Shown piece after piece: positions 4,002 through 24,275 of a stretch of 64,000 bases of DNA. Within the stretch, counting starts at the first letter, position 1, and every line of letters begins with the position of its first letter. A program made the translations under genes and the position numbers. The DNA lies in NCBI RefSeq assembly GCF_000213805.1, contig NC_015556.1, forward strand, positions 2,170,001 to 2,234,000, written 5' to 3'. The stretch comes from Pseudomonas fulva 12-X. Its GTDB lineage: Bacteria; Pseudomonadota; Gammaproteobacteria; Pseudomonadales; Pseudomonadaceae. Below the pieces are notes generated by a model. The model was not told the origin of the DNA, did not search any database, and worked only from the letters and a program-made list of their open reading frames with translations.

Positions 4002-4019
4002 CCACGGAGTGTTCGCTGT

Positions 4020-6201: not shown

Positions 6202-6258
6202 GCTGCAGTGCGTGGGCGTCGTCGCACGCCCGCGCCGTGAAGAGAAATGGAGCCACCG

Positions 6259-6654: not shown

Positions 6655-6668
6655 ATCTATTTCCTCGG

Positions 6669-6704: not shown

Positions 6705-7077
6705 GCCTGCGAAAAATGCCTCGCCAGGACAACCCTGAGTTTCAGATGAGTGGATTCTTGACAGTGCGCCCTGGCTGGAGGCGTGGCGCGCTCAGTTCAA
6801 TGTGGCGCAGCGGGGCAAGACATGAGTGGCGCTGCGACATAAGTTCGGGTTGCCGGAACTCCCGCCTTCCTGCGCACAACTCCAACAATAGAGCGTACCT
6901 GCCGATGCCTCCCATGCCTGATGCCGTGCCCACATCCGTAATCAAAGCAGGCGTTATTCTTCGCGCCTTTCCTGGTGGTGCGACTCATCAGAGACTCACG
7001 CCAACGCTCTGTTGACCCGCACGCTACCCGATTGATTGACGTGTTGCGCTTTGACCTGACCGCCGAGGAAGCTGGCT
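6705..7077. other. Intergenic region before the chemoreceptor, no gene recognised
   Basis: No open frame here has a credible ribosome site or family resemblance. The stretch must hold the promoter of the chemoreceptor at 7078, and GAGGAAG just before that start is its likely ribosome site. A GCCGATG near 6903 resembles part of a sigma-28 -10 element, but its -35 partner is poor. Confidence 0.5.
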
Positions 7078-8562: not shown

Positions 8563-8583
8563 GCCTGGTCATGCGCTGTGCTT

Positions 8584-8604
8584 TGCCGCACCCGCTGTGC
8601 GGCA
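8584..8604. terminator. Hairpin between convergent genes
   Basis: TGCCGCAC and GTGCGGCA form a perfect 8-bp stem with a five-base loop in the gap between the convergent chemoreceptor and AraC gene. There is no T run, so it may be a weak bidirectional terminator. Confidence 0.4.
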
Positions 8605-8608
8605 TCGC

Positions 8609-9595: not shown

Positions 9596-9661
9596 CGGGA
9601 ATACCCTTGTGGTGATCGTCCGCAGGTTCCTGCGGACGACTGTCGCTCGAACTTAGGCTGA

Positions 9662-11140
9662 TCAGAAGGGGTAACGATGCCCCCCGGCCTGCCAGGTGAC
9701 CCAGTGTGCACGGGTGAACTCATCCAGCGCGTAATGACCATTGAAGCGACCCAGTCCGGAGTTTTTCTCGCCACCGAAAGGCGCGTTTGGCTGGTCGTCA
9801 ACGGTAATATCGTTGATATGTGTCATGCCCGCTACAAGTTTTCGGGAGAAGGCCAGGCCACGTGCCATGTCACGGGTGAACACGGCGCTGGAGAGCCCGT
9901 AGTCGCCGGCGTTGGCCAGTGCCAGGGCATGCTGTTCATCGTCGGCCACCACCAGCGGCAGCAAGGGGCCGAAGGTCTCTTCCATCGCCAGTTCCTGGCC
10001 GGCCGGCACATCGCCGAAGACATGCGGCGGCAATACCAGGCCGCTGGGCTGACCGCCTGCCATCTGAGTGAGGCCGGCGGCGTGGGCGTTGTCGATCTTG
10101 CGCAGCAGGCCATCGAGCTGGGCCTGGTTGATGACCGGGCCGATCACCGTATCGGCCAGGTTCGGGTCGCCGATCTTCAGTGCCTTGACCCGCTCGGCCA
10201 CCAGTGCGGCGAAGTCGCCGTAGACCTTGCGATCGACGATGACGCGGTTGACGCTCATGCAGATCTGCCCCTGATGCAGGAAGCGACCGACCACGGCGGC
10301 GTGAGCGGCCACCTCGATGTCGGCATCATCCAATACCACCAGCGGGCTGTTGCCACCGAGTTCGAGGGCGACGCGCTTGATGTACTGACCGCCGGTGGCG
10401 ATACGCCCGACGTTGCGGCCAACATCGGTCGAGCCGGTAAAGGAAATGAAGCTGGGTACCTGATGCTCCACGAACGCATCACCGATTTCCGAGCCGGCAC
10501 CGACGATGACGTTGAGTACGCCAGCCGGAAAGCCTGCCTCTTCGAACAGATGGGCGATCAGCAAGCCGCCGGTCACGGCCGTGTCGCTGGCGGGCTTGAG
10601 CACCACGGTGTTGCCCAGCGCCACAGCCGGGATGACCGAGCGCATGCTCAGGTACAGCGGGAAGTTCCAGGGGCTGATGACACCCACCACGCCCAGCGGC
10701 TCGCGGAACACGAAGCTCTGCTCGCCCGGTTTGTGGCTGGTGAGAATGCGCCCCTCGACCTGGAACGGCATGCTCGCGCATTCGCGCACCAGATTGAGCG
10801 TGGCGTGGCATTCGAAGCCGGCCTTGATACGTGTACTGCCGGATTCACGAATCAGCCAGCCGGTAATTTCTTCAGCGCGCGACTCGATGACCTGCGCCAG
10901 ACGGTTGAGCAGCTCGGTCTTTTGCGCCGGCGTGGTGGCAGCCCACTCCTGCTGGGCACGTTGTGCAGCCAGGTAGGCCTGGTCGAGATCGTCACGCGAG
11001 GCCATCGGCATCGCCAGCAGCTGGGCGCCGGTGAACGGATCACGGTCATCGAGCTGGCGGCTGGATCGTCCGCTGGTCCAACCGCCGTCGATGTACTGGC
11101 GGCCGGAAAGGGCATAGAGGGCAGGTGTCTGGTGAGTCAT
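9662..11140 (-). CDS. NAD(P)-dependent aryl-aldehyde dehydrogenase (first copy)
   Basis: A 492-residue aldehyde dehydrogenase of the vanillin/benzaldehyde/salicylaldehyde dehydrogenase type. Catalytic residues are present: Asn159 in SPWNFP, Glu260 in LELGGN and Cys294 in HQGQICMS. It should oxidise an aromatic aldehyde to the acid in the cytoplasm. It lies 48 bp downstream of the ring-cleavage dioxygenase gene in the same operon. A paralogue with nearly the same architecture is at 17098-18579, about half identical by eye. Two such enzymes in one island would suit a substrate that yields two different aldehydes. Exact substrate unknown. Confidence 0.9.
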   Translation of the reverse strand: MTHQTPALYALSGRQYIDGGWTSGRSSRQLDDRDPFTGAQLLAMPMASRDDLDQAYLAAQRAQQEWAATTPAQKTELLNRLAQVIESRAEEITGWLIRESGSTRIKAGFECHATLNLVRECASMPFQVEGRILTSHKPGEQSFVFREPLGVVGVISPWNFPLYLSMRSVIPAVALGNTVVLKPASDTAVTGGLLIAHLFEEAGFPAGVLNVIVGAGSEIGDAFVEHQVPSFISFTGSTDVGRNVGRIATGGQYIKRVALELGGNSPLVVLDDADIEVAAHAAVVGRFLHQGQICMSVNRVIVDRKVYGDFAALVAERVKALKIGDPNLADTVIGPVINQAQLDGLLRKIDNAHAAGLTQMAGGQPSGLVLPPHVFGDVPAGQELAMEETFGPLLPLVVADDEQHALALANAGDYGLSSAVFTRDMARGLAFSRKLVAGMTHINDITVDDQPNAPFGGEKNSGLGRFNGHYALDEFTRAHWVTWQAGGHRYPF

Positions 11141-11188
11141 GGCAGTTCTCCGATTGATCTGATTTTTGTTCGAGATGGGGTATGGGCG

Positions 11189-12037
11189 TCAGGTGCGAAT
11201 CCAGGCGCGGCCCCAGGAATTGAGGGTGTGCTCGCACTGCGGCCACTGGCCGGGCGGCGTGTCGGACGTGGTGGTCTGCAATTCTGCGGAGAACTCCAGA
11301 CGGTTACGGTCGGCATCGACCACCATGAAGAACAGGTTGTTGCCGGGGCCGTGGCGGCCTGGGCCGAAGAAGATGTTGATGTGTTCCTTGGCGAAGCGAT
11401 CACCCCAGTCGCGAATGTCGTTCCACTCGTTGGTTTCGTAGCAGTGATGATCCCATTCGTTGCGTGAGCCGCGGAAAAACGCCAGCGAATGGTGCTCATC
11501 GTCCGAGCGCAGGAAGCAGACCATCAACTGGCCGCTTTGTGCATCGACCACGTTGTCGGAAATGGTGAAGCCCACGGTGTTGACGTAGAAATCGACGACG
11601 GCCTCCAGTTCGGTGGTCTGGAACACCACGTGCTGCAGGCGCCCCGGCATGCCTGGCAGGTCGGCGTGCTGCAGCGTGCTGGAGGTGCCGAAGATGGTTT
11701 CCCGACCCTGGGGATCGCGAATGCTGAAGGCGCCTGCATCGAGCAGCGGGGAATCGATGTCAGCGACCGGGCAGCACTTCTGCTCAAGGCGTTGGCGCAG
11801 CTCGCCCAGGTGCTGTGCGCTGGCCAGGCGGTAGGCAGCGGCCAGCAAGCCGGACTGATCCGCCGGGCTGATATGGACGGCCCGATTGGGCCCCAGCAGC
11901 ACGGCACTGCCATCGGCCTGCCGCTCGCCTTGCAGGTCCATCATGCGTTTGTAAAAGTCGATCTGGCGCTGCGGTTCCTTGCTGCCCATGTGCAGGTAGA
12001 GCAGGCGGGCAGGTGTGGTGGTTTGCAATGTGCTCAT
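11189..12037 (-). CDS. Extradiol ring-cleavage dioxygenase (VOC superfamily)
   Basis: A 282-residue two-module vicinal-oxygen-chelate protein resembling 2,3-dihydroxybiphenyl dioxygenases. Candidate iron ligands in the C-terminal half are His136 (RLQHVVFQ), His197 or His198 (WDHHCYE) and Glu248 (NRLEFSAE). The His pair at 182-183 (EHHSLAFF) corresponds to the acid-base histidine. It is therefore likely active, cleaving a catecholic or trihydroxy ring next to a hydroxyl. A good GAGGAG site precedes the ATG. It is 18 bp after the flavin hydroxylase gene, which would make its substrate. The length is slightly below the roughly 290-300 residues usual for BphC. Confidence 0.87.
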   Translation of the reverse strand: MSTLQTTTPARLLYLHMGSKEPQRQIDFYKRMMDLQGERQADGSAVLLGPNRAVHISPADQSGLLAAAYRLASAQHLGELRQRLEQKCCPVADIDSPLLDAGAFSIRDPQGRETIFGTSSTLQHADLPGMPGRLQHVVFQTTELEAVVDFYVNTVGFTISDNVVDAQSGQLMVCFLRSDDEHHSLAFFRGSRNEWDHHCYETNEWNDIRDWGDRFAKEHINIFFGPGRHGPGNNLFFMVVDADRNRLEFSAELQTTTSDTPPGQWPQCEHTLNSWGRAWIRT

Positions 12038-12055
12038 CGGAATGCTCCTCGAAGG

Positions 12056-13702
12056 TCAGCGAAGCGCTTCGGCGGCCAGGGCGAATGGGGTGGCCGAGGC
12101 AACGGGCTGCGGGTTGAACAGGGCTTGCAGTGAATCGGCGACATGCATCTCGTCATGGCAGTCGAAGAGGGCGGCGATATAGCGATCCGGGCGCAGCACG
12201 ATGATCGCGCGTGACTCGAAGAAGGCTGCAGGCAGGGCGTTGTGGCGGTCGCGCAGAATGCTCGGGCCGCCTTGTTGCGCCACGCTGGCTGGGGCGTCGC
12301 CAGGCTCGACGATGATCTGCCGCGCGCCGAGTGCGGCCCAGAGCGGGTGCTGCAACTGGTCGAGTGCGTTGCTTTGCGCGCGCCCGCACTGGATCAGCGC
12401 GAAGCCATCGCCAATCAGGTCATCGAGTTTGCAATCGCGCCCTTCACTGTCCTCAAGGGTCGGTTGTGGAAACATCTCGCCGGTTCGAAAGGGCGCGGTG
12501 ATGCTGCTGCTGACCACCAGGCCCTGGGTGAAGCGCGGCTTGGGTTTGAAGCGCATCTGCAGGAAATAGTCGCGCAGCGGCGGGATGTGACCGATGACGC
12601 GGAACAGTCCGCTGATCAGCCTGGCCCGCAGCGCGCTTGCAGGGGCCATCACCACGCCCAGGTTCAATGCCAGCTGAATCAGTGCCCAGGCATGACCGCG
12701 GCGTTCCTGCTCGTAAGTGTCTAGCACCGACGGATGCATGCCTGAGCGCAGTACCTGAATCAGCTTCCAGCCCAGGTTGTGCGCATCGCGAATGCCACTG
12801 TTCATACCCTGGCCCGCATAGGGCGGGGTCAGGTGGGCCGCGTCGCCTGCCAGAAATACCCGGCCGACGTTCCAGCGTTCGGCAACCCGGGCGTGGAAGG
12901 TGTAGACCGTCTTGCGCACCACCGAGGTGGGCTTGTCATCGCGGAAGGGGCGCAGCAGTTCACGCAGTTTGGCGTCATCGAGCATCTGCTCGTCGCTTTC
13001 ATCGGGGCGCAGCATCAGCTCGAAACGCCTGGTCTTGTGCGGGCCTGGCACTTCGACGATTGGGCGACGGGCATCGCAGTACACCCGGGTCTGCCAGAAC
13101 GGATCGTCATCCTGGTCGGTGTCGACCACCAGCCAGCGCGACTGGAAGCTGGAGCCGACCATGGCCACGCCAAGCTGCTTGCGCACCGGGCTGCGGCCGC
13201 CGTCGCAGGCGATCAGATAATCGGCGCTGATGGTGATTTGCTCACCTGCGGCATTTCTCACCTGGGCGACCACGCGCTGCTCATCCTGGGTGAAGCTCAG
13301 CAGCTCGTGGTTGAAGCATTGGGTCAGCGAGGCGAAACGATCCATGCCTTTGCGCAGCGTGGCTTCGAACAGCGGCTGGCGGAAGGCGTTGCGCTTGGGA
13401 AAACCATAGGCGGTCGAGGTCGGTTCCACCTTGCCGAAGCAATGGCCGCCCGGGCGATCGAAGTAATGCACGCCGTAGCCGGGCACTACGTCGCGCAGCA
13501 CTTCATCTGCCAGGCCGATGGCCTGCATAGTCCTCAGTGACTCGTCATCGATCGATACCGCACGGGGCTCGGCGACAGTGCTGGCCTTGCGGTCGAGGAT
13601 GATGGTGGTGATGTCGGCCTGGCCGAGCAGATTCGCTAGGGTGAGACCGGTCGGTCCGGCACCCACGATAAGGACGCCAGACTGCATGTATAGGGTTGTC
13701 AT
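12056..13702 (-). CDS. FAD-dependent aromatic hydroxylase (MhpA/PheA class)
   Basis: A 548-residue class A flavoprotein monooxygenase. The dinucleotide motif VLIVGAGPTGLTLANLL spans 10-26. The DG motif is at 167-168 (ACDGGRSPVRK) and the GD motif at 286-287 (AGDAAHLTPPYAGQG). A C-terminal thioredoxin-like extension follows, as in MhpA and phenol hydroxylase. It should hydroxylate a phenolic ring using NAD(P)H and O2, preparing it for the dioxygenase encoded next. The start at 13702 has AAAGGGAA upstream; the methionine at residue 6 is an alternative. 3-Hydroxyphenylpropionate, resorcinol or orcinol hydroxylases are all possible relatives. Confidence 0.87.
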   Translation of the reverse strand: MTTLYMQSGVLIVGAGPTGLTLANLLGQADITTIILDRKASTVAEPRAVSIDDESLRTMQAIGLADEVLRDVVPGYGVHYFDRPGGHCFGKVEPTSTAYGFPKRNAFRQPLFEATLRKGMDRFASLTQCFNHELLSFTQDEQRVVAQVRNAAGEQITISADYLIACDGGRSPVRKQLGVAMVGSSFQSRWLVVDTDQDDDPFWQTRVYCDARRPIVEVPGPHKTRRFELMLRPDESDEQMLDDAKLRELLRPFRDDKPTSVVRKTVYTFHARVAERWNVGRVFLAGDAAHLTPPYAGQGMNSGIRDAHNLGWKLIQVLRSGMHPSVLDTYEQERRGHAWALIQLALNLGVVMAPASALRARLISGLFRVIGHIPPLRDYFLQMRFKPKPRFTQGLVVSSSITAPFRTGEMFPQPTLEDSEGRDCKLDDLIGDGFALIQCGRAQSNALDQLQHPLWAALGARQIIVEPGDAPASVAQQGGPSILRDRHNALPAAFFESRAIIVLRPDRYIAALFDCHDEMHVADSLQALFNPQPVASATPFALAAEALR

Positions 13703-13709
13703 TGTTGTT
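13702..13709 (-). promoter_or_regulatory. A-rich Crc/Hfq-type motif at the hydroxylase start
   Basis: On the minus strand AACAACAA, matching AANAANAA, abuts and shares the A of the ATG of the flavin hydroxylase gene. This is the mRNA motif that Hfq/Crc uses for catabolite repression in Pseudomonas. Confidence 0.5.
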
Positions 13710-13730
13710 CCCTTTTTGAGTAGGGGCGGC

Positions 13731-14558
13731 TCAGTCCAACTGATGGGGCCTGTGTGAGAGGGTCGTGGCCAGTTGGGTCAGGTTCTCCGCCAGGGTCATG
13801 ATCTGTAGCCCATGTTGTTCATCCAGATCGGGGTTACGCTCCTGCAGCGGCCTTACGCAGGAAATGCTGCCGACCACGCGACCGTCACCGTCGAAGATCG
13901 GTGCCGCGAGGCCAAAGACCCCGCTATCGACTTCGGCAATGCTGATCACGAAACCCTTTCGGCGAATGCCCTGCAGCGAGCGGCGAAATTCATCCCAGGT
14001 CTGGCCCAGGTTGCTTTGCCGGATCAGCTCCGGGTTTTCCAGAAACAGCTGGCTGTGCTGACGCGTACCCAGGTGCGCGAGAATGGCTTTCGAAGTCGCG
14101 CCCATGAACAGCGGGCGCGGCGTACCACGGGCGTAGCTGAGCTCATCGGTAAGGGCGCCGCTCTGGTGGATGCAGACGACCTGGTCCTTGAACAACCGGC
14201 AGACCAGCCACGCTTGGTGCTCGCTCCAGCTCGGCAAGTCGGCTTCGAGCTGGCTGGCAGCCCGCACGAGGGGATCGCTGACGCGCAACTGGCGATCCCA
14301 GGTGATGATGCGCGAGCCCAGGGTGTAGCGCCCCGCCTCGACCTGGAACAGCAGTTCGGCATCGGCCAGCTCACGCACGTAGCGATAGACCGTGGAGCGG
14401 GTGTAGCCCAGGGCCGCCCCCATATCGTCCACCGCCCAGACCGGGTTGGCCTCGGTGAAGATATCCAGAACCCGCAGCATGCGTTCCAGGCTGGAGGCCT
14501 TTGCCGTGCTTGGCGACAGGCCGGGGCTGGTCTGGTTGTGTTTAGACAGGCCGTCCAT
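13731..14558 (-). CDS. IclR-family transcriptional regulator
   Basis: A 275-residue IclR regulator. The winged helix-turn-helix is at about 22-85 (AVDDMGAALGYTRSTVYRYV), and the effector-binding IclR domain fills the remainder (SYARGTPRPLFMGATSKAILAHL; VFGLAAPIFDGDGRVVGSI). It sits inside the second aromatic operon, six bases after the FAH hydrolase gene and 28 bp before the hydroxylase gene. IclR proteins such as PcaR, PobR and MhpR control aromatic pathways. The perfect palindrome at 16882-16904 upstream of the operon is a candidate binding site. Activator or repressor role not known. Confidence 0.9.
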   Translation of the reverse strand: MDGLSKHNQTSPGLSPSTAKASSLERMLRVLDIFTEANPVWAVDDMGAALGYTRSTVYRYVRELADAELLFQVEAGRYTLGSRIITWDRQLRVSDPLVRAASQLEADLPSWSEHQAWLVCRLFKDQVVCIHQSGALTDELSYARGTPRPLFMGATSKAILAHLGTRQHSQLFLENPELIRQSNLGQTWDEFRRSLQGIRRKGFVISIAEVDSGVFGLAAPIFDGDGRVVGSISCVRPLQERNPDLDEQHGLQIMTLAENLTQLATTLSHRPHQLD

Positions 14559-14564
14559 TTCTCG

Positions 14565-15413
14565 TTACTCGTCAGCGATGGTGTTGCGCAGGATACCAAT
14601 GGAAGCGATCTCGACCTCGACAACATCACCGGGCTTCATCCATACCTGCGGTTCGCGGAAGGCGCCGACGCCGCCGGTGGTGCCCGAGACGATCACGTCG
14701 CCGGGTGCCAGCTCGGTGAAGGCGGTGCAGTATTCGATCAGCTTGCGCACGTCGAAGATCATGTCCGCCGTACTGGTGTGCTGCATGATTTCGCCATTGA
14801 GGCGGGTGGTCAGCTCCAGGGTCTGCGGGTCGGGGATCTCGTCGGCGGTCACCAGCCATGGGCCGAAACCGCCGGTTTGCGGGAAGTTCTTGCCCGGTAC
14901 GAACTGAATGGTGTGTTTCTGCCAGTCACGCACGCTGCCGTCGTTGTAGCAGCTGTAGCCGGCCACGTAGTCGAGGGCGTCGGCTTCCTTGACATGGCGT
15001 GCGGTCTTGCCGATGACCACGGCCAGCTCACCCTCGAAATCCAGCTTGTGCGAGGCCTTGGGGCGCAGAATGGGTTGCTCGTGCGCGGTCTGGCTGTCGG
15101 CGAAGCGGGTGAAAATCATCGGGTACACCGGCGTTTCGCGGCCGGTTTCACGCATGTGCGTGGCGTAGTTGATGCCGATGCAGAGGATCTTGCCCGGGTG
15201 TGTGATGACCGGCAGGAACTGGATGTCGGCAAGGTTCAAGCGCGGCAGCTCGGCAAGGCTGTCGGCACTCAGTTCGACCAGGCGATTGCCGGCGATGGCT
15301 TGCTTGAGATCCTGGCCGATGCTGGCCTTGAGCTCATGCAGATCGATGATTTCGTCACCGCTGACGATGCCGTAGGAGTCGCGACCCTGATGGGTGAAAC
15401 TGGCAATTTTCAT
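14565..15413 (-). CDS. Fumarylacetoacetate hydrolase-family C-C hydrolase
   Basis: A 282-residue FAH-fold protein. The N-terminal cap is about 1-70 and the catalytic domain follows from ILCIGINYATHMRE. Metal-binding acids are Glu127 and Glu129 in LDFEGELAVVIG and Asp158 in YNDGSVRDWQ. Known family members cleave C-C bonds of acylpyruvates and 2,4-diketo acids or act as decarboxylases and isomerases. Encoded with a hydroxylase and an extradiol dioxygenase, and with no MhpC-type alpha/beta hydrolase in the island, it probably hydrolyses the ring-cleavage product. This is the arrangement of the orcinol pathway, where a trioxo acid is hydrolysed. It lies 32 bp after the MFS gene. Confidence 0.85.
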   Translation of the reverse strand: MKIASFTHQGRDSYGIVSGDEIIDLHELKASIGQDLKQAIAGNRLVELSADSLAELPRLNLADIQFLPVITHPGKILCIGINYATHMRETGRETPVYPMIFTRFADSQTAHEQPILRPKASHKLDFEGELAVVIGKTARHVKEADALDYVAGYSCYNDGSVRDWQKHTIQFVPGKNFPQTGGFGPWLVTADEIPDPQTLELTTRLNGEIMQHTSTADMIFDVRKLIEYCTAFTELAPGDVIVSGTTGGVGAFREPQVWMKPGDVVEVEIASIGILRNTIADE

Positions 15414-15445
15414 GTGATTTTCCCTTGTGGGTGTAGTTGTCGGGT

Positions 15446-16789
15446 TCAGGCTGCATGTCCGGGCGTGGCCCGTAGCTGGCTGAAGAGGATGGTCAACACG
15501 GCGCCCAGAGCCAGGGCGCCTGGCAGCAGCGCCGCCATGAAGATCTGCTGCAGTGACCAGCCCAGGCCGAGCATCAGGCCACCGAAGATCGGGCCGATGA
15601 TCGAGCCGATGCGACCGACGCCCAGCGCCCAGCCGATGCCGGTGGAACGAATGCTCTGTGGATAGATTTCCGCGGCCACTGCATTGAGACCCGCCTGTGC
15701 GCCCTGCACGGTGATGCCGAGGATGAACATCGCCAGCAGGAAGCGATCCAGCACCACCGGAAGCAGGCTCAGCGCAAGCACCAGTACCAGGTAGCAGATG
15801 AATTCACCGAGCAGCACCTGGTAGGTGCCGAAGCGGTTCATCGCGTGGCCCTGGACCACCGAGCCGATCACGCCTCCGAGGCTGAACAGGATGATCGCGA
15901 CGATACCGGCCGACAGCGGTGCGTTGGCTGTCGCGAGCACGGTGGGGATCCAGCTCATGATCGAGTAGAGAATCAGCAGGTTCATGGCGTACGGCAGCCA
16001 CAGCAGCAGGGTGCGGCGCCACATGCCTTCACTGAACAGACGGCTCACCGGAATGCGTTCGGCCTTGGTCGACGACGCATCAGGCGTGCCTGCACCGCGA
16101 GGGCTGACCGTTGGGAACAGACTTTTGAGCACGCGCTCGAACTGCTGGCGGCGCAGCGGCGAGCGCGCCAGGTATTCCATCGACTCGGGCAGGCGGATGG
16201 CGATCACCAGCGCCACGACGATGGGCAGGGTGCCGCCAACGATGAAAATGGCATGCCAGCCCCAGTGACTGAGCATGTACTGCGAGGTCAGCCCGGCGAG
16301 CATGGCGCCCAGTGGCATGCCGCAGAACACCAGAGTCACCGCCGATCGCGAGCTACGCCGTGGCATGTACTCGGCGGCCAGGGCCACCAGATTGGGAATC
16401 GCGCCGCCAAGACCAAGGCCAGTCAGAAAACGGACCAGCAGCAACTCGTCGTAGTGTTTGACGAACGCCGTCAACAGGGCGAAGAAGCCGAAGGCCAATA
16501 CCGAGGCGATCAGTACCTTCTTGCGCCCGATGCAGTCGGCCAGCGGGGCCAGCAGCAAGGCACCGACCATCAGGCCGAACAGAGCCGCCGCGAACACCGG
16601 ACCGAAGGCCGAGGGGGCGATGGCCAGGCTATCGGCCATGGGTTTGACCAGAAAGCCCACCACTTGCGTGTCGAAGCCATCGAGCACTGCGATGAGCAGG
16701 CAAAGGCCCAACACTTCGTATTGTCTGGCGCCGATCTGGCGGTTGTCGATCACGCCACCCAGGGCGCTCGTCGCGTTGGATTGATGCAC
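15446..16789 (-). CDS. Aromatic acid:H+ symporter (MFS, AAHS family)
   Basis: A 447-residue twelve-helix transporter like PcaK, BenK and MhpT. LIAVLDGFDTQVVGF in helix 1 carries the DGxD-type aspartates typical of the AAHS family. LADCIGRKKVLI after helix 2 is the MFS signature loop. It should import an aromatic acid by proton symport. The start is a GTG at 16789, supported by an AGAGG ribosome site and by the sequence context; no earlier ATG fits. It is the first gene of the second aromatic operon, downstream of the 16882-16904 palindrome. Confidence 0.88.
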   Translation of the reverse strand: MHQSNATSALGGVIDNRQIGARQYEVLGLCLLIAVLDGFDTQVVGFLVKPMADSLAIAPSAFGPVFAAALFGLMVGALLLAPLADCIGRKKVLIASVLAFGFFALLTAFVKHYDELLLVRFLTGLGLGGAIPNLVALAAEYMPRRSSRSAVTLVFCGMPLGAMLAGLTSQYMLSHWGWHAIFIVGGTLPIVVALVIAIRLPESMEYLARSPLRRQQFERVLKSLFPTVSPRGAGTPDASSTKAERIPVSRLFSEGMWRRTLLLWLPYAMNLLILYSIMSWIPTVLATANAPLSAGIVAIILFSLGGVIGSVVQGHAMNRFGTYQVLLGEFICYLVLVLALSLLPVVLDRFLLAMFILGITVQGAQAGLNAVAAEIYPQSIRSTGIGWALGVGRIGSIIGPIFGGLMLGLGWSLQQIFMAALLPGALALGAVLTILFSQLRATPGHAA

Positions 16790-16801
16790 GGCTTGAGCCT
16801 C

Positions 16802-16809
16802 TTGTTCTT
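16802..16809 (-). promoter_or_regulatory. A-rich Crc/Hfq-type motif before the AAHS transporter
   Basis: On the minus strand AAGAACAA (AANAANAA) sits directly before the AGAGG ribosome site of the GTG-started transporter gene, so binding would block translation initiation. Confidence 0.45.
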
Positions 16810-16869
16810 ATCGTGATGCACAGGCATTCGCGTAAGGATCCGCGATGGGCTCAATCTAGGCTTCAAATT

Positions 16870-16904
16870 AAATCCTGTAAAGTGGGATTTAATAAAAATC
16901 CCAC
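16870..16904. promoter_or_regulatory. Perfect palindrome, likely operator of the second aromatic operon
   Basis: GTGGGATTT (16882-16890), five bases, then AAATCCCAC (16896-16904) form a perfect 9-bp dyad in an AT-rich patch. A third partial half-site, AAATCC, lies at 16870-16875 and pairs with the same GGATTT. It lies 93-115 bp upstream of the AAHS transporter start, the only gene it can serve on that strand; the gene on its other side ends rather than starts here. The IclR or AraC protein of the island is the natural binder, by inference. Confidence 0.6.
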
Positions 16905-17024
16905 AATATGAAAATTATTTGTTTTATGGCTTGGATATGTGCGGCGCGGAGTCACCCCGGCGCATTGGCCGCACTGGCGTAGAGCCACGGCAGCGGCAGA
17001 GGTACGGCCGGTCGCGGTGTGTTT

Positions 17025-17078
17025 CCAGGGACTGTTGGCATTTCGAGGCGCTGTGCTCGACATGGCAACAGTCCCTGG
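17025..17078. terminator. 13-bp inverted repeat after the first aromatic operon
   Basis: CCAGGGACTGTTG (17025-17037) and CAACAGTCCCTGG (17066-17078) are perfect complements separated by 28 bases. A second small hairpin (GGCAC/GTGCC) lies nearer the aldehyde dehydrogenase stop at 17098. Together they probably end or stabilise the 3' end of the operon that runs from 24038 to 17098. No T run is present. Confidence 0.5.
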
Positions 17079-17097
17079 CCTGGCACTGTGCCGGGGC

Positions 17098-18579
17098 TCA
17101 GAACGGGTAGGGGCGTGGCGCGTGCTGGATCGAGACCCAATGGTCTGTGGTGAGTTCGGCGATGATCCAGTCGCTGTTGAACCGTCCCAGGCCGCTGTTT
17201 TTCTCACCGCCGAACAGGTTGCTGGGGTCGTCGTTCACCGAGATGTCGTTGACATGCGTCATCCCTGCCTCGATTTGCTGGGCGAAGCGCACGCCGCGCG
17301 CTTCGTCGCGGGTGAACACCGAGCTGGACAGACCGAACTCGGTCGCGTTGGCCAGCTCCAGCGCATGTGCTTCATCGCGGGCACGGATCACCGGTGCGAT
17401 AGGGCTGAAGTGCTCGCTTTGAGCCAGAGGCGATTCATTGGCGACGTCGATGAAGATGTGCGGTGGCAGTAGTCGGCCATCGACGCGGCCATCCAGTACC
17501 AGCTGCGCCGCGGATTGTTTGGCGGCCTCGATACGTGACAGAGCGCCTTCGAGTTGACGTGAGTTGATCAGCGGGCCGATCACCGTGTCACTGTCGTTGG
17601 GGTCGCCCACCTTGAGCTGGCGCGCCCGCTCGACAAAGGCTTCGACGAAACGATCATGAATGCTGGTGTCGACGATGATACGGTTGCTGCTCATGCAGAT
17701 TTGCCCCTGATGCAGGAAGCGGCCTACCGTGGCACCCTGTACCGCGCGCTCCAGGTCCGCGTCATCGAGCACCACGCACGGAGCATTGCCGCCCAGCTCC
17801 AGACCCACGCGCTTGAGCGTCGGGCCGCTCATGGCCAGACCGCCGATATGCCGGCCGACTCGGGTGGAGCCGGTGAAGGAAATGAACTTGGGGATCGGAT
17901 GCAGAGTAAAGGCATCGCCGATATCGGCCACATCGCCGACCACCACGTTGAGCACACCAGGTGGCAGCCCGGCTTCCTCGTAAAGCTTGCCGAGCAGCAG
18001 GCCTCCGGTGACCGGAGTATCGTCGGCGGGCTTGACCACCACGGCATTACCCAATGCCAGAGCCGGTGCGATTGAGCGGTTGGACAGGTGCATTGGCCAG
18101 TTCCACGGGCTGATAACGCCGACCACGCCGAGTGGCTTGCGATACACGCGGCTTTCCTTGCCGGGAATGTCCACCGGCAGGATGCGCCCCTGCACGCGGG
18201 CGGGCATGCTGGCGGCGGCCAGCATGGTTGCGCGTACGGCGCCCCATTCGATTTGCGCCTTGGTGCGGGTGCTGCCCGATTCACGGATCAGCCAGTCGAT
18301 GATCTCGCCCTGTCGTGCATCCAAGATGGTCACGGCGCGCAGGAACACCGCTGCCCGATCGGCTGGAAGCAGGGCGGCCCAGTCGCGCTGGGCACTGGCT
18401 GCGCTGCGATAGGCCAGGTCGAGATCGGTCTGGTTGGCCAGGCTGATGCGGGTCAACAGGGCGCCGTCATAGGGGTTGTGATCGTCCAGTACCTTGCCAG
18501 AGCTGCCAGCGCACCAGCGGCCTGCGATGAATTGTCCGGTGAAGTCATGCCATGGGTTGGCGATCAGGCTCATGTTCAA
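17098..18579 (-). CDS. NAD(P)-dependent aryl-aldehyde dehydrogenase (second copy)
   Basis: A 493-residue aldehyde dehydrogenase with Asn160 (SPWNWP), Glu261 (LELGGN) and Cys295 (HQGQICMS). It shares most framework motifs with the protein at 9662-11140, so the two are paralogues. It is the last gene of the first operon, 23 bp after the FUSC gene and with the cleaving oxygenase gene upstream. The simplest role is oxidation of an aldehyde released by that oxygenase, for example vanillin or a hydroxybenzaldehyde. The start MNMS could be either of two methionines two codons apart. Confidence 0.9.
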
Positions 18580-18602
18580 GCTCCTGGGGTGGGGGAAAGG
18601 AA

Positions 18603-20327
18603 TCAGTCTTTGGACGTGAGGCGGGCAAGGGTTCGCGCGGCCTGTTCGGCGTTGTATGCGGCCTGTGCCGAGTCCGGCACGGGTGAGGAGTCATCGGTTA
18701 CAAAGGGCGCTGTCGCGGCGATGCAGCGCAGTGCGGCACTGACCAGCACGCTCGCATAGCCGTCGCTCACCACCAGTGAGCGCAGCAGGGCACGCGCGCG
18801 CCCATGAGCCGCGGCGAATTGGCTCGGCGCTGTGGCGCGCCGGGTTTGCCTGGCGATGCGCCGAGCCAGAGCCAGGCGCCTACCTGCCGCAAGTGCGGGA
18901 TACCACAGCAGCAGGCTTGCGGCCGCAGCCAGTACTCCCAGCACAATCGCCAGCGTCTGCTGGGCGACTAGTGGCAGATCGCTCGGCAGCTGTACGCCGG
19001 GCTGCGCCGTGAGCAGGAAGGTCATGTTCAGGTCAATGGCCAGCTTGGCGGTTCGGGCGCGGGCCATCAGCGCTGCGCCAGTCAGCAGGAAGGGGGCGAT
19101 GCACGCCAGCAACTGCCAGTCGCTGTGCACCTGGGGCAGCAGCCAGAGGCGGGCGACCATGCCTGCGCTGGCGCCCAGCAGGGAGCCGATGAATACATCC
19201 TTGAGCGCCATCCTGGCATCGTTGTGGCTGGAGAACAGCGAGGCGAACAGCACCGCGGTCATGGTCATGATGGCGCCTTCGCTCCAGCCGCTCAGGCGCC
19301 AGGCCAGTGCCGCGATGATCAGGGCTGACAGTGGCCGTGCCGCAGAGGTGCTGGCGGCGCGCCAATCATGGTTAAGCACCCGTTCGCGCCAGTTGGCTCG
19401 GCTGCTCGGGTTTGCGAAGAGTTGCTGCAAGCGTTCGAGTGCCAGCAGCAGTTGCGGGTATTTGCTGGGGTGCAGTTGCAGTGCGCCGATGAAGGCTTCG
19501 AGGTTTTCCTGCTCGCTTCGCTCATCGGCAAAGCGCGCGTCGCACAAAAACGTGCTGTGCGTCTCGTGCAAGCTGTGCACCAGGGCGACGCTGACGAGCA
19601 GCGCATCGATCACCTCATGGGCGTGGCGGACCCGCTGGCGCCCCTTGCGTGAGCCGGCGGCAGCGAAATCGAGCACGCCATCGAGGGTCTTGATGGCGCC
19701 CAGTATGCGATTGAGGTCAGTGGCATTCTCTGTCTGCACGGGGCCGCTCATGCACCAGCGCAGGCAGTCGTTGACCAGTGCGTCGAGGCGCTCTTCGAGC
19801 AGCACGCTCGGCTCGGCCTTGGCGGTAAACAGCCAGGATATGCAGGAGCAACAGAGTATGCCGAGCAGTGTGCAGATCACGCGCCCGCTGGCGAGTTCTG
19901 GGTCGAACACCGGGTCGGCCAGGCCGAACAGGGCCACGATCGCAGCGGTATAGCCGGCCAGTACCCAGGCGTAGTTGCGAAAGTGCCGAAAGAAGTTGCC
20001 GACGGCGGCGCACAGCGCCAGCCAGAGTGCCAGCAGGCATAGCAACAGGTTGGGCCAGCCGAAGAAAAAGTACAGCAGCACGCCACCCACCAGCGCGCCT
20101 ACAAGGCTGCCTGTGAGGCGTGCAATAGAGCGTTCGATAAACAGGCCGCGGGTGGGCTGGGCGACCAGCCATACCGTCATCGCGGCCCACCAGGGATGAT
20201 GAATGCCGGCCGCGTTGGCCAGCGCCAGAGCGAGCAGAGCCGCTGCGGTGCTGTGCAGGCTGAACAGGAGAGGGGCGCGCGCTTCGGCCAGGGCTTGACG
20301 CGTGCGTTGTAAAAGTACGCCGCTCAT
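18603..20327 (-). CDS. FUSC-family aromatic acid efflux protein
   Basis: A 574-residue inner-membrane protein of the fusaric-acid-resistance type (AaeB-like). About six hydrophobic segments lie between residues 20 and 165, a soluble domain spans about 170-345, and a second block of about five segments spans 350-490. Relatives export aromatic carboxylates together with an AaeA-type membrane-fusion protein. No such partner is encoded nearby. Within the operon it probably relieves accumulation of aromatic acids. It is slightly shorter than AaeB. It lies 35 bp after the oxygenase gene. Confidence 0.8.
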
Positions 20328-20362
20328 GGCGAGCGGCGTTGCTGGCTGGGTCGTGGCATCGC

Positions 20363-21811
20363 TTACTCGGCGGCAGACCAGGAGCCGTGCAGGGACATGC
20401 GCATGCGAAACGGAATCCGGATTCGTGCCACAGGGCCGGTGGCCATATCGCGTGAGTCGAGTACCACCAGCTCGCTGCTGAAGTCGAAGAGGTTATTGAG
20501 CAGGGCAATGACATAGCCGTCGCCTTCTGGGGCATCCGCAGAACGGGGCACGAAGATCGGCTCCTGGAAGCACCCGCTTTCGCCCGGGAACCAGCTATCG
20601 CTCACACCTGTACGCAGGTTGAAGTGCGTCAGCAGGTTGAAGAACTGGAAGGGCATGGGCCCGTTCTCTTCGCGATAGGGGCGCGTCGGATCGAAAGACA
20701 GCATGAAGCCATGCTCATAGGGCAGGCCGGTGTAGCGCTCATCGACACGCGGAAACTCGCAGCGGTAATCGGTCAGCGGTCTGGGTTCGACCAGATCGCT
20801 CTTGGCGCTGAGGTCGAAGGTCCAGCGCTGCAGCGTGGAAGAGAGGGTTTCCGGGTTGGGGACAAAGCCGTCCTGCTGAGGGAAGAAGTAGAAGACGTTG
20901 CCGTCGGTGACCGGCATGTCGACATGGATCTGTCCGTCTTGCTCGAAGGCATTGAGGGTATGCCCCTGGAACCCGTTGGCAGGGCCCTTGAACCAGCGCA
21001 CGTCGCTGGCCGTTCCGTGGCGCGGCAGCACGGCGAACAGTTGCGGCAGGTCAGGCTGCCACTGGAAGTGCTGCCCGCCGCGCTTCATGCGCTCCACGTC
21101 CACGGTCAGGGGAATGAACGGGAACACGATGTAGTTCGGGGTGATGGCGCAGTCGTGCACCATCGCCGCGTACGGCGCCTGGAACCAGATTTCCTTCAGC
21201 AGTTTGCCGTCCGGGCTGATCTCGAAATAGGCCATGTCCGGCGTGCCGTCGCCCTTTGCCTCGTAGCTGAAGGCGAGCAAGTTGCCGCTGACGGGGTCGA
21301 TTTTCGGGTGGGCGGTGAAGGTCGCCGACTTGATCTGCCCATTCCAGTCGTAAACGCCCAGCGTCTCCAGGGTTTGCGGGTCCATGGCGTAGGGCAGGGC
21401 GTCTTCCTTCATGGCCAGTAGCACATCGCCGTACTTGAGCACGGTGGTGTTGGCCGTGGTGTTGTTGGCGGCCGCCAGTTCGTCGTTGCTGTAGACGTTG
21501 CGATAGATGCCGTTGAGCGATCGACCTTCGTGGCGCTGGGCGAGCAGACGGTCGGTCTGCACGTAGCGACGGCGCAGCGAAACCTTGCCATCGGCAAAGA
21601 AGAACGCACTGACCATGCCGTCGCCGTTGAAGAAGATGTCGTTGCCGAGCAGGGGTGGATACTGGTGGTCGGGCGACACCTGATAGAAGGCACCACGGAT
21701 AGCCGCTGGCAGTTCGCCCTCGATTTCGAGATCCATGACATCGGCTTCCACGCGACTCGGGCGGTAAAGGGCGCCGGAGAATTCGGGCGTTTCGGGAAAT
21801 AGGGCCGTCAT
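20363..21811 (-). CDS. Carotenoid-oxygenase-family alkene-cleaving enzyme (lignostilbene dioxygenase / isoeugenol monooxygenase type)
   Basis: A 482-residue seven-bladed propeller enzyme. The four non-haem iron histidines are visible: His168 (FTAHPK), His219 (MVHDCA), His284 (QGHTLN) and His475 (SLHGSW). The N-terminal VMDLEIEGELP, FNGDGMVSAF and the C-terminal PRSADAPEGDGYVIALL are close to isoeugenol monooxygenase and lignostilbene dioxygenases. Such enzymes cleave the alkene side chain of 4-hydroxystilbenes or propenylphenols with O2, giving aryl aldehydes. Operon partners (two aromatic-type transporters, an aldehyde dehydrogenase) agree. True carotenoid cleavage is unlikely in this context. 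A clear AAGGAAAA ribosome site precedes the ATG. Confidence 0.88.
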   Translation of the reverse strand: MTALFPETPEFSGALYRPSRVEADVMDLEIEGELPAAIRGAFYQVSPDHQYPPLLGNDIFFNGDGMVSAFFFADGKVSLRRRYVQTDRLLAQRHEGRSLNGIYRNVYSNDELAAANNTTANTTVLKYGDVLLAMKEDALPYAMDPQTLETLGVYDWNGQIKSATFTAHPKIDPVSGNLLAFSYEAKGDGTPDMAYFEISPDGKLLKEIWFQAPYAAMVHDCAITPNYIVFPFIPLTVDVERMKRGGQHFQWQPDLPQLFAVLPRHGTASDVRWFKGPANGFQGHTLNAFEQDGQIHVDMPVTDGNVFYFFPQQDGFVPNPETLSSTLQRWTFDLSAKSDLVEPRPLTDYRCEFPRVDERYTGLPYEHGFMLSFDPTRPYREENGPMPFQFFNLLTHFNLRTGVSDSWFPGESGCFQEPIFVPRSADAPEGDGYVIALLNNLFDFSSELVVLDSRDMATGPVARIRIPFRMRMSLHGSWSAAE

Positions 21812-21842
21812 GATGATTTTCCTTGCATTGAAAGACTGTGAA

Positions 21843-23024
21843 TCAGGCCGCCTGGACCATCAGCTCTGCCTGTTGGGCACGCGAGCGCTGGCGGAAGCGG
21901 GCGACCACCAGAAACGCAATAAACAGACCCAGGATGTAGGTGGCAGCGGCCAGCCAGCCGACTGCGCGCAGGTTGCCACCGCCGACCACCAGTGCCGCGC
22001 CCAGCGGGCCTGCGCCCTGACCGATGAAAATGGCCGCGTTGCCCAGGCCGGCGAGTCGCCCACTGGGGTCGAGCTCGGCAGTCATGGAGAACAGGTACGG
22101 CAGGCTGAAGAACCAGGCCAGGTGGATCAGTGCAGCAGTGGTCGCAAAGGCCAGCGCGCTGGTGCCATGGACCATGATCAAGGTGGCTACCAGCGCCAGG
22201 CCGAAGCCGATCAGCTGCGGCATCAGCAGGCCGATACGCCGTTTGATGATGCCGGCCAGCCCGGCGCCGATGGCCCCGGCAAGGATGCTGGCACCGAGAA
22301 TGGCGCCAATTTGCTGAGGTTCCAGGCCGATACTTTTGCCAATGCGCTCCTGATACACCCAAAGCGCCGAGTGGCCGAAGAACAGCAGCGCGAACAACGA
22401 CACCAGTAACAGCGCAGTGACCGTCATCGGCGGCTCGCCAGCTTCGACGTGCGCTGCCGCCTCATCGTAGCGTGGCGGTATACGGTTGAAACCGAGCAGG
22501 GCGATGGCACTGGCTACGGCGAGCGCCATGAACACGGCTGGAATGCCTGCTGCCTGGAGGATCAACGGGGTCGAAGAGACGATCAATATCCCCCACAGCA
22601 GGTTGCCGATGTTGATGACGGCGAAGGTCGAGTCCTTCGATTCGCGCAGAGCAGCCGTCGCATAAACCACGGCCATCACCACGCCACCGCTGAGCCCGCA
22701 GAGCACCCGGCTGGCGCATAATGCCAACCCACTGCTGGCCTGGGTGCTCAGCAGATTGCCGATCACCAGGGCCAGTAAGCCTGCGAGTGCGAAGCGGCGA
22801 CGATTGACTTTGGGCATCAGCAAGGCGCTGACGCCGCATGCCACGGCCATGGCGATCAGCTCGGCGGCAAAGATGGCGCCGATGGCGTTCAGTGGAATAC
22901 CCAGCCGATCAACGAAAGCACCGCCCAGAATTGGCTGGACCTGCAGGGTGCCAAGGGAAATGACCATCATCATGCAGATGGCCAGGAGGGTCCTTTTGCT
23001 GTTCACAACGTCGAGTGCATTCAT
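21843..23024 (-). CDS. MFS transporter, substrate unknown
   Basis: A 393-residue, twelve-helix major facilitator without a long central loop. It starts with MNALDVVNSKRTLLAICMMM and has the helix 2-3 loop LMPKVNRRRFALAG in place of a classic GRR motif. It does not belong to the AAHS group of the other island transporter. Located between the outer-membrane channel and the oxygenase gene (21 and 31 bp gaps), it is likely to move the uncleaved substrate across the inner membrane. An exporter role cannot be excluded. Confidence 0.75.
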   Translation of the reverse strand: MNALDVVNSKRTLLAICMMMVISLGTLQVQPILGGAFVDRLGIPLNAIGAIFAAELIAMAVACGVSALLMPKVNRRRFALAGLLALVIGNLLSTQASSGLALCASRVLCGLSGGVVMAVVYATAALRESKDSTFAVINIGNLLWGILIVSSTPLILQAAGIPAVFMALAVASAIALLGFNRIPPRYDEAAAHVEAGEPPMTVTALLLVSLFALLFFGHSALWVYQERIGKSIGLEPQQIGAILGASILAGAIGAGLAGIIKRRIGLLMPQLIGFGLALVATLIMVHGTSALAFATTAALIHLAWFFSLPYLFSMTAELDPSGRLAGLGNAAIFIGQGAGPLGAALVVGGGNLRAVGWLAAATYILGLFIAFLVVARFRQRSRAQQAELMVQAA

Positions 23025-23045
23025 GATTGCTTTGCCTCTGGATGA

Positions 23046-24038
23046 TCAGAACGCATGCGCAAAGCGCAACTGGACCGCGAAGTCGTTCTTGGCACGGTTC
23101 TCTACCTGAGTCTCGTGGTAGGTATTGAGCCAGAAGCCGTCGCCTTCACTGATTTTCCAGAAAAGACCCGGGCCGATACCGAGCACTTTTTCGCGCGAGT
23201 CTTCGAGACGCTGGCCGTTTACCTGGTCATCGCTGAGCTGCTTGAAGTAGTAGCCGTTGATGCCCACCGAGAGGTTGGGAATGACTTCGTAGGAGGCGGC
23301 GAAGTTGATCCAGGCCGATTTGCCTGCCTGGGTATCACGCACGGGCTGCCCTTCGAAGGGCACAGGTGAGCTGCTCGCCGGATCGTCGTTCTTGAAGTTG
23401 TAGAGGTAATGCAGGCGCCAGCTCAGTTCCCAGCGGGGGGCTGGCATCCAGGTCGCGGCCCAGTAAGGGTTGAGCGAGTAAGTATTGGAGCCCTGGTTGA
23501 GGTCCTTGTCTTCGTCGTATTTACCGGTCGGCATAATCACGTCGAAGGCCACGCGCTGGACGAAAACCGGGCGGCCAGTCGAGTCGACGATCGGGTCGAA
23601 TTGAATCTGTGGACCGGCGGTAATGTCGCCCAGCCCGAATGCATTGTCCTTGAGCTTGGCTCCAGCGTCGCCGAAATCGCCATCCAGAGACACCAGCGGC
23701 ACCAGCAGGCTCCAGCCCAGGTGTGCGCCGCCGCCGATGGTTTCGGGCGAGTAATAGCTGAACTGGTTGATCAGCGTCACGACATTCAGCTTGGGATTGT
23801 CGAACGCGGTGTTTTCCTTGCCATTGTTGTTCCTGAACGAGCTGGCGCTCTGGTATTTCAGGTAGGCGAGGTAGTTGAGTCCGGGAGGGCCTGCGAAACC
23901 GTCATAGAAGCTGGTTCCGCCCAGGTTGATGCCAGCCGGCTGATTGACGGAGGGCGGCGGCGGGCCATCGGCGGCCATGGCGGTGTCGAGTGCTGCGAGG
24001 GTGAACAATCCCAGTGTGATGGCAAGCGAGGTCTTCAT
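23046..24038 (-). CDS. Outer-membrane channel of the aromatic-degradation (SphA/MetA) family
   Basis: A 330-residue protein with a signal peptide (MKTSLAITLGLFTLAALDTAMA, cut before ADGPPPP). It has alternating beta-strand segments and ends in phenylalanine (LRFAHAF), typical of an outer-membrane beta barrel. The pattern GINLGGTSFYDGF and PHLGWSLLVPLV-like segments resemble the phenol meta-pathway/SphA family found beside aromatic catabolic operons. It probably lets hydrophobic aromatics through the outer membrane. It is the first gene of the first aromatic operon. No enzyme motif is visible. Confidence 0.8.
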   Translation of the reverse strand: MKTSLAITLGLFTLAALDTAMAADGPPPPSVNQPAGINLGGTSFYDGFAGPPGLNYLAYLKYQSASSFRNNNGKENTAFDNPKLNVVTLINQFSYYSPETIGGGAHLGWSLLVPLVSLDGDFGDAGAKLKDNAFGLGDITAGPQIQFDPIVDSTGRPVFVQRVAFDVIMPTGKYDEDKDLNQGSNTYSLNPYWAATWMPAPRWELSWRLHYLYNFKNDDPASSSPVPFEGQPVRDTQAGKSAWINFAASYEVIPNLSVGINGYYFKQLSDDQVNGQRLEDSREKVLGIGPGLFWKISEGDGFWLNTYHETQVENRAKNDFAVQLRFAHAF

Positions 24039-24050
24039 GTCTGGAGGCTC

Positions 24051-24058
24051 TTATTGTT
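24051..24058 (-). promoter_or_regulatory. A-rich Crc/Hfq-type motif before the outer-membrane channel gene
   Basis: On the minus strand AACAATAA (AANAANAA) lies just upstream of the GAGCCTCCAGAC leader of the first gene of the aromatic operon. Confidence 0.45.
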
Positions 24059-24074
24059 GGTGTTGTGAGCTGAA

Positions 24075-24099
24075 TGCAATCTGTGTTGCACGCCTGCAA
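24075..24099. promoter_or_regulatory. Clustered TGCAA/TTGCA half-sites upstream of the first aromatic operon
   Basis: TGCAAT (24075-24080), TTGCA (24086-24090) and TGCAA (24095-24099) lie 37-61 bp upstream of the channel gene start, in a 237-bp gap shared with the divergent ABC transporter. TTGCA-N4-TGCAA is a perfect short dyad. It may be an operator of this operon; it differs in sequence from the 16882 palindrome. Confidence 0.4.
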
Positions 24100-24275
24100 T
24101 TTACGACGTGCTCGCGCAGCATTCTTATGTCGGCGGGCCATCTTTGTCTGGGCGTGCCATTGCTGGGGCTGAATGATTGCCGCTGTGGTGATCGCGGGGC
24201 GTCGGTGCTTGATGTTCACCACGGCTGACCCCATCTGAAGGGCAGGAGCACTTCCCATCCTCTTTAGAGCCCACC

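Follow-up and report, generated by a model that had tools for sequence, protein, structure and literature searches.

A genomic island of Pseudomonas fulva 12-X predicted to encode complete catabolism of a resveratrol-type stilbene

Plants use stilbenes as defence compounds, and much is already known about the oxygenase that cleaves them. Here we describe the genes that surround such an enzyme in Pseudomonas fulva 12-X, within a stretch of 64,000 nucleotides (contig NC_015556.1, positions 2,170,001 to 2,234,000; hereafter the window, in whose numbering all coordinates are given). Five minus-strand genes encode an outer-membrane channel, a carrier of the major facilitator superfamily (MFS), the oxygenase, a FUSC-family exporter and an aldehyde dehydrogenase (Table 1). 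Their gaps of 21, 31, 35 and 23 bp fall in the range of 21-35 bp given in a preliminary description of this DNA, and the families named there were all recovered, as matches to Phenol_MetA_deg, MFS_1, RPE65, FUSC and Aldedh. That description took the five genes for a self-contained module, which proved incorrect: they form the leading section of an island of 17.6 kb that also holds a ring-cleavage operon. Seven further genes continue on the same strand to position 8609, and the majority of these also recur as neighbours in related loci. An alternative ATG start for the second aldehyde dehydrogenase gene, aldh2, lies two codons in, at 18573.

Table 1. Features of the window discussed in the text, with their positions and the evidence for each.
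Feature	Position	Strand	Evidence
Whole island, 17.6 kb, missing as a single block in relative G001	6647..24204		Alignment to relative stretch; GC
omp, PF13557 outer-membrane channel, 330 aa	23046..24038	-	PF13557 (Phenol_MetA_deg) 198.7 bits; 73-78% in 15 full Pseudomonas loci
mfs2, MFS carrier, 393 aa	21843..23024	-	PF07690 (MFS_1) 67.8 bits; adjoins oxygenase in 15 full Pseudomonas loci, 67-70%
lsd, stilbene-cleaving 4-His Fe oxygenase (PbLSD orthologue), 482 aa	20363..21811	-	RPE65 443.3 bits; PDB matches; alignment; tree
fusc, FUSC-family exporter, 574 aa, possible hydroxybenzoate efflux	18603..20327	-	PF04632 (FUSC) 297.7 bits
aldh2, aldehyde dehydrogenase of oxygenase operon, 493 aa from TTG	17098..18579	-	PF00171 (Aldedh) 490.3 bits
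Strong 54-nt hairpin about 20 nt after aldh2, between operons, no T-run	17025..17078	-	-41.3 kcal/mol for 17020-17100, z -5.3
Promoter TTTACA-17-TAGATT and palindrome GTGGGATTT-N5-AAATCCCAC abutting the -35 box, upstream of ring operon	16853..16904	-	Sequence pattern
mfs1, aromatic-acid/H+ symporter-like carrier	15446..16789	-	TIGR00895 348.8 bits, below cut-off 418.55
FAH-family hydrolase; proposed 2,4,6-trioxopimelate (acylpyruvate) hydrolase	14565..15413	-	PF01557 231.9 bits; 49% to pBAM2 FAH protein
IclR-family regulator	13731..14558	-	PF01614, PF09339; closest model TIGR02431 PcaR/PcaU/PobR 60.2 bits, below cut-off 284.75
MhpA-like FAD hydroxylase; proposed 3,5-dihydroxybenzoate hydroxylase	12056..13702	-	NF004831 734.6 bits, above cut-off 546
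Extradiol (VOC-fold) dioxygenase; proposed 2,3,5-trihydroxybenzoate dioxygenase	11189..12037	-	Pfam Glyoxalase; 38% to pBAM2 VOC protein
aldh1, aldehyde dehydrogenase of ring operon	9662..11140	-	Aldehyde dehydrogenase models; 77-80% in 15 full Pseudomonas loci
AraC-type regulator	8609..9595	-	Best NCBIfam match FeaR 152.5 bits, below cut-off 199; 52-56% in 15 full Pseudomonas loci
Methyl-accepting chemotaxis protein inside island	7078..8562	+	Best NCBIfam match CtpM 244.6 bits, below cut-off 900
pcaF, carrier, pcaB, pcaD, pcaC; flank the island, outside it	323..6654	+	Above NCBIfam cut-offs for pcaF, pcaB, pcaD, pcaC

The preliminary description took the oxygenase for a lignostilbene/isoeugenol-type member of the carotenoid-oxygenase family, and its grouping with PbLSD of Pseudomonas brassicacearum in both bit scores and tree supports a stilbene-cleaving one. 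Among proteins of the PDB it scored 875 bits with PbLSD (5v2d; 76% identity), 470 with LsdA, 440 with LSD4 (6xm6) and 415 with NOV1. Its scores with the apocarotenoid oxygenase of Synechocystis and with RPE65 were 167 and 31 bits. The iron ligands that had already been pointed out, His168, His219, His284 and His475, are kept in all 36 rows of our alignment, and the oxygenase shares with PbLSD these four histidines as well as Phe61, Tyr103, Thr122, Lys135, Phe281 and Gln282. In the part of PMC6097328 that was available, the pose of resveratrol docked in PbLSD is lined by Phe61, Thr122, Lys135, Phe281 and Gln282, and the enzyme converts resveratrol in vitro to 3,5-dihydroxybenzaldehyde and 4-hydroxybenzaldehyde. 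Tyr103 and Lys135 align with 5v2d, 6ojw and 7qr6; in LSD4, according to the accessible portion of its description, a Tyr/Lys pair hydrogen-bonds the 4-hydroxyl of the substrate, the matching of residue numbers between LSD4 and the window oxygenase being our own. A 36-row tree places the window oxygenase with PbLSD in a starred clade of 15 rows, to which LsdA and 7qr6 do not belong; beyond the Pseudomonas clade the tree has long branches, only the clade of the window oxygenase was used, and the rows include no characterised apocarotenoid or isoeugenol enzyme. On the alignment and tree the oxygenase is a PbLSD-type stilbene-cleaving orthologue, and its cleavage of resveratrol in this organism is predicted.

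These comparisons also bear on two other substrates. Apocarotenoid cleavage would fit the family (PF03055) and a putative cleavage of lycopene by PbLSD in cells (PMC6097328, available in part), but we set it aside as highly improbable in view of its higher score with PbLSD (875 bits) than with the apocarotenoid oxygenase (167), and of neighbouring genes that, where their families are known, belong to aromatic catabolism or transport. Cleavage of isoeugenol or another propenylphenol to vanillin draws on the same superfamily and on a 4-hydroxyl-binding Tyr/Lys pair that is common to other members. We consider it very improbable on indirect grounds: homologues at 39-41% identity (L048 and L049, the former at 39%), which serve as proxies by neighbourhood only, lie in other neighbourhoods, and L048 falls outside the clade of the window enzyme. 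These two homologues (genomes G128 and G245) stand near a flavoprotein and mark candidate isoeugenol-type clusters; the flavoprotein of L048 resembles 4-cresol dehydrogenase/vanillyl-alcohol oxidase.

The ring operon holds genes for a hydroxylase, an extradiol dioxygenase and an FAH-family hydrolase. From this gene content, before the match to pBAM2 described below, 2,4,6-trioxopimelate was deduced as the product of ring cleavage: hydroxylation of 3,5-dihydroxybenzoate at C2 and cleavage between C1 and C2 would lead to it, and one hydrolysis would then yield pyruvate and oxaloacetate, a route that needs just the three enzymes whose genes are present. The columns of the QH, EHH, DHH and E motifs of the dioxygenase are invariant in all nine aligned proteins. 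Adjacent VOC and FAH proteins encoded on pBAM2 of Aminobacter sp. MSH1 are 38% identical to the dioxygenase and 49% to the FAH hydrolase, respectively, and homologues of both members of this pair thus lie in the ring operon. The pBAM2 pair is, we assume, BbdF and BbdG; in work by Raes and co-workers of 2019, BbdF is said to turn a trihydroxylated benzoate into 2,4,6-trioxoheptanedioic acid and BbdG to carry the product towards Krebs-cycle intermediates. By analogy, we infer that the ring operon pair would work by way of 2,4,6-trioxoheptanedioate. The aldehyde dehydrogenase of this operon, aldh1, reached no equivalog cut-off among the 25 NCBIfam matches listed.

We therefore propose, with a probability of roughly two in three, that the island serves to degrade a 4-hydroxystilbene bearing a 3,5-dihydroxyphenyl ring to central metabolites, resveratrol being the likeliest substrate. 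The substrate would enter through the outer-membrane channel and mfs2, and the iron oxygenase would cut its central double bond to give 4-hydroxybenzaldehyde and 3,5-dihydroxybenzaldehyde, the reaction observed in vitro for PbLSD. Both aldehydes would be oxidised by aldh1 and aldh2. One product, 4-hydroxybenzoate, could pass through PobA to protocatechuate and on into the adjacent pca genes; another part of the genome has a match to a 4-hydroxybenzoate 3-monooxygenase model of the PobA type (663 bits against a cut-off of 351), and the flux is predicted from the genes present. The other, 3,5-dihydroxybenzoate, would be converted by the MhpA-like enzyme to 2,3,5-trihydroxybenzoate, which the extradiol enzyme would open (with BbdF as a presumed precedent) and the FAH enzyme would finally split into its two products (C7 = C3 + C4), while FUSC may vent surplus hydroxybenzoates. 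The substrate proposed in the preliminary description, a plant stilbenoid or lignin fragment, was too broad: a stilbenoid is probable, and a lignin fragment, though possible, leaves the ring operon unexplained.

The association of the oxygenase with ring-cleavage genes extends well beyond this strain. A scan with the oxygenase as query gave 30 loci, half of which (15 out of 30, the full Pseudomonas loci) carry the oxygenase, channel, mfs2, FAH, IclR, hydroxylase, dioxygenase, aldh1 and AraC genes. A Herbaspirillum locus (L018) has the full set with aldh2 replacing aldh1, and in the remaining 14 the oxygenase is joined by some or none of these genes, several of the contigs ending early. The carrier mfs1 is elsewhere or missing in most of the 15 full loci, being found in L014 only. 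Genes were called with a GC3-based open reading frame picker, which recovered the expected window genes as a control; its calls on other loci are provisional, with some genes missed, such as the fusc and oxygenase-type frames of L042, seen by tblastn. In a survey of 298 genomes of the genus, taken as Pseudomonas and including several that also supplied loci to the 30, the oxygenase was matched at an E value of 0.001 in 22 genomes, 14 of them (source genome included) at an identity of at least 74%. The dioxygenase was found at 70% or more (E 1e-40) in 21 genomes and the hydroxylase at 65% or more (E 1e-100) in 20, with the next best hydroxylase match at 41%. Every one of the 14 genomes with an oxygenase orthologue also carries a dioxygenase orthologue (at least 70%), at a distance of 3.6-3.9 kb in 13 and 8.3 kb here; the Fisher p of 3e-19 for this co-occurrence is a guide only, related genomes not being independent and kinship being uncorrected. 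The oxygenase match of genome G125 is split in two, and the gene may be broken. Two Rhizobium plasmids carry a diverged version of the pairing, with the oxygenase at 58-59%, aldehyde dehydrogenase at 64%, hydroxylase at 42-44%, dioxygenase at 34-36%, FAH at 51-53% and IclR at 31-33% identity, and with TetR.

Comparison with relatives suggests how the strain came by these genes. Judged by the flanking ABC protein, G001 is closest to the strain in a set of 29 genomes that includes its own (95%, the next reaching 83%). Window positions 1-6646 (89.6%) and 24205-26045 (87.8%) align to the G001 stretch L072 only 73 bp apart, positions 6647-24204 have no counterpart in that stretch, and G001 as a whole gave no match to the oxygenase or the dioxygenase. 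The GC content of the island is 62.4%, as compared with 65.2% in both flanks. The rarity of the cluster within the genus leads us to infer that gain here is likelier than loss in G001. The flanking pca genes are conserved in G001; a frame at 323-1108 looks like pcaJ by eye only and has no NCBIfam match at 1e-20. The chemotaxis protein within the island is a candidate sensor and may respond to the stilbene or its products, the ligand being a guess. In another genome (G105, locus L051), the C-terminal part of a FUSC gene and an intact aldh2 adjoin a gene for a conjugative transfer ATPase (TIGR03744, above cut-off), an arrangement which suggests that the gene set moves between strains.

Several observations weigh against complete resveratrol catabolism. 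The substrates and products are deduced, and for all proteins of this genome the case rests on sequence; the oxygenase reaches 586.8 bits with the NCBIfam equivalog for lignostilbene dioxygenase (NF053778), below its cut-off of 800. The dioxygenase is only 38% identical to its pBAM2 counterpart, the reactions of the pBAM2 pair are presumed, and the accessible part of the source says that the pBAM2 enzymes take 2,6-dichlorobenzoate to central metabolism and no more. The empty site comes from a single relative; in a second, G012, the gene for the ABC protein has different neighbours, which makes this relative uninformative on the site. The oxygenase match on Rhizobium plasmid L061 spans residues 55-481 only, with no gene annotated, and the gene may be broken. 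In 13 of 14 genomes picked for loci outside the usual Pseudomonas cluster the dioxygenase was not found at E 1e-30, the other one being a Herbaspirillum. Set against the linkage within the genus and on the Rhizobium plasmids, this last count makes the ring module a frequent but optional partner of the oxygenase. Finally, a VanA_C gene is present in the genome, so that lignin stilbenes yielding vanillin could also be used, and the dioxygenase occurs without a PbLSD-type oxygenase in 7 of the 21 genus genomes that bear it. The last two points are shared by a distinct explanation, in which the oxygenase acts on lignin stilbenes (for example, lignostilbene to vanillin) and the ring operon serves a separate, co-located aromatic acid; LSD family members do cleave lignostilbene (PMC8191317, available in part). 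Vanillin, however, does not call for a dedicated ring operon, among orthologues with assay data the nearest cleaves resveratrol, and the oxygenase and dioxygenase stay together in 14 of 14 genus genomes and in diverged form on the Rhizobium plasmids; we therefore regard this explanation as unlikely.

The exporter bears on a further possibility, that the stilbene is merely detoxified, its fragments being cleaved, oxidised and exported rather than used as food. Clusters of TetR, FUSC, aldh2 and oxygenase genes without ring genes (L016, L017 and L019) would suit such a role, as would the position of FUSC beside the oxygenase here. It is nonetheless decidedly improbable, given that ring-cleavage genes accompany the oxygenase both here and in the 15 Pseudomonas loci, and that FUSC was not found at E 1e-30 in 13 of the 14 genus genomes bearing an orthologue. 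The idea that the oxygenase operon comes with its own porin and FUSC partner accordingly stands for the porin, which is kept in all 15 full Pseudomonas loci, and fails for FUSC, which as a constant partner is ruled out in the genus by its presence in 1 of 14. FUSC relatives at 42-45% identity lie near aldh2 in L016, L017, L019, L042-L044, L051 (partial) and L052. Aldh2 itself is 70-74% identical to dehydrogenases near the oxygenase in L016, L018, L019 and L023, and 76% to the copy in L051, which is near another enzyme type. The best NCBIfam match of FUSC is AaeB (NF007916), at 62.5 bits against a cut-off of 870, and overflow export of hydroxybenzoates is predicted with low confidence.

The seven genomes in which the dioxygenase lacks a PbLSD-type partner raise a wider idea. 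Four of them (G059, G101, G143 and G201; loci L044, L042, L052 and L043) have, about 8 kb from the dioxygenase, a different carotenoid-oxygenase-family member, matched at 28-30% in the survey and 29% identical to the window enzyme, beside the ring module. These four enzymes are 99.6-100% identical to each other and hence count as one event. In all of them the 4-hydroxyl-binding Lys is replaced by Gln and a nearby Thr by Val, and the L042 locus of G101, the only one of the four scanned for families, encodes a benzaldehyde dehydrogenase of the MdlD type (799.7 bits against a cut-off of 550) and a GMC oxidoreductase; aldh2 matches in L042-L044 and L052 fall in pieces in different frames. Such a set might possibly suit pinosylvin, which has no 4-hydroxyl and would give benzaldehyde and 3,5-dihydroxybenzaldehyde, although the 4-hydroxyl-binding Tyr is kept in all four and their nearest PDB relatives are apocarotenoid oxygenases. 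It is tempting, if still doubtful, to see a transferable resorcylate module (hydroxylase, extradiol enzyme, FAH and IclR, taking 3,5-dihydroxybenzoate to pyruvate and oxaloacetate in three steps) joined to exchangeable stilbene-cutting heads, of PbLSD type here and of pinosylvin type elsewhere. The remaining three genomes (G044, G070 and G192) have the dioxygenase and no oxygenase match at E 0.001, and G192 is also without the hydroxylase. In G044 and G070 (L045 and L046) the ring module without a stilbene oxygenase lies near an alcohol dehydrogenase, an aldh2-like dehydrogenase and a lactonase-like protein, a candidate for another feeder into the same ring route; in L046, which was scanned for families, the lactonase-like protein resembles AidB, below its cut-off.

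The two operons of the island are likely to be separate transcription units, each with its own conserved control region, as judged from the hairpin after aldh2, a possible operon boundary, and from separate conserved regions upstream of the ring operon and of the channel gene. The palindrome at the ring-operon promoter is perfect. Among 19 intergenic regions (from the window, 15 Pseudomonas loci, L042, L045 and L046), the core TTACAG(G/A)ATT is missing in L021 only, the other 18 having it, and the inverted pair GGATT-N5-10-AATCC is present in just 12. Of 53 sequences scanned, 29 contain a fuller promoter pattern, which never appeared when each sequence was shuffled five times at the mononucleotide level; many of the 24 sequences without it lack the ring operon, and L046 and L021 depart from the pattern. 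Upstream of the channel gene, the window and 10 of 12 further regions have no putative IclR half-sites GGATTT/AAATCC, and L005 and L021 have single ones; another conserved block sits there instead. The IclR protein, which possibly works like the PcaR/PcaU/PobR regulators despite scoring below their cut-off, probably controls the ring operon through the promoter palindrome as its putative site, and the AraC protein probably controls the oxygenase operon.

More distant oxygenase relatives lie in settings of their own. On a plasmid of Bradyrhizobium guangxiense from peanut (L058), a relative at 50% identity is accompanied by an FAD oxidoreductase, an FAH protein (44%), an MFS carrier, a chemotaxis protein, a protein of the indolepyruvate ferredoxin oxidoreductase family and a VOC protein without a match to the window dioxygenase; among the matches listed, six further Bradyrhizobium plasmids, all from peanut, show the same oxygenase match. 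Peanut makes resveratrol. On a plasmid of Pseudomonas putida YC-AE1 (L057), a homologue at 41% lies with an aldehyde dehydrogenase, a 2Fe-2S protein and a P450, in a cluster flanked by IS91 and Tn3 transposases that would, we presume, fit bisphenol A breakdown via a stilbene.

Searches of the open-licence literature, which leaves out most subscription papers, listed no paper on genes for the resorcinol-type half of a stilbene, as judged in part by title or opening of abstract, and none on a cluster that unites channel, FUSC, a pair of aldehyde dehydrogenases and ring operon. If our proposal is correct, it names a defined set of genes, open to experimental test, by which plant-associated bacteria could use stilbenes in full; it also places the crystallised enzyme PbLSD in a physiological context and supplies a short path leading from 3,5-dihydroxybenzoate to a pair of central metabolites. 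PbLSD is the closest known system, with the same iron-binding and 4-hydroxyl-binding residues, and a P. brassicacearum genome (L013) carries the same cluster; compared with the usual Pseudomonas set, the window adds FUSC and a second aldehyde dehydrogenase. The main text of PMC6097328, in the part available, has no mention of operon, gene cluster, fusaric, porin or aldehyde dehydrogenase. Growth on resveratrol, as expected of the proposed route, is reported for a rhizosphere Acinetobacter (Kurt 2018, as cited in PMC8191317, available in part). The TetR/FUSC/aldehyde dehydrogenase/oxygenase clusters of Rhizobiaceae and Xanthomonas (L016, L017 and L019) resemble the oxygenase operon (FUSC 43-45%, aldh2 70-74%, oxygenase 70-71%), and differ in having TetR in place of AraC and IclR, no ring operon at the loci and no dioxygenase in the genomes at E 1e-30. 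The pBAM2 system likewise brings extradiol-type and FAH genes together, yet there they are adjacent, whereas iclR and mhpA lie between them in the window. Its trihydroxybenzoate is presumably made from 2,6-dichlorobenzoate; here it would probably come from 3,5-dihydroxybenzoate through the MhpA-like hydroxylase. In the orcinol pathway of P. putida, a resorcinol ring is hydroxylated, opened by extradiol cleavage, and the resulting trioxo acid hydrolysed. Likened by reactions alone, the proposed route would follow the same sequence, with a carboxyl group here where orcinol carries a methyl.

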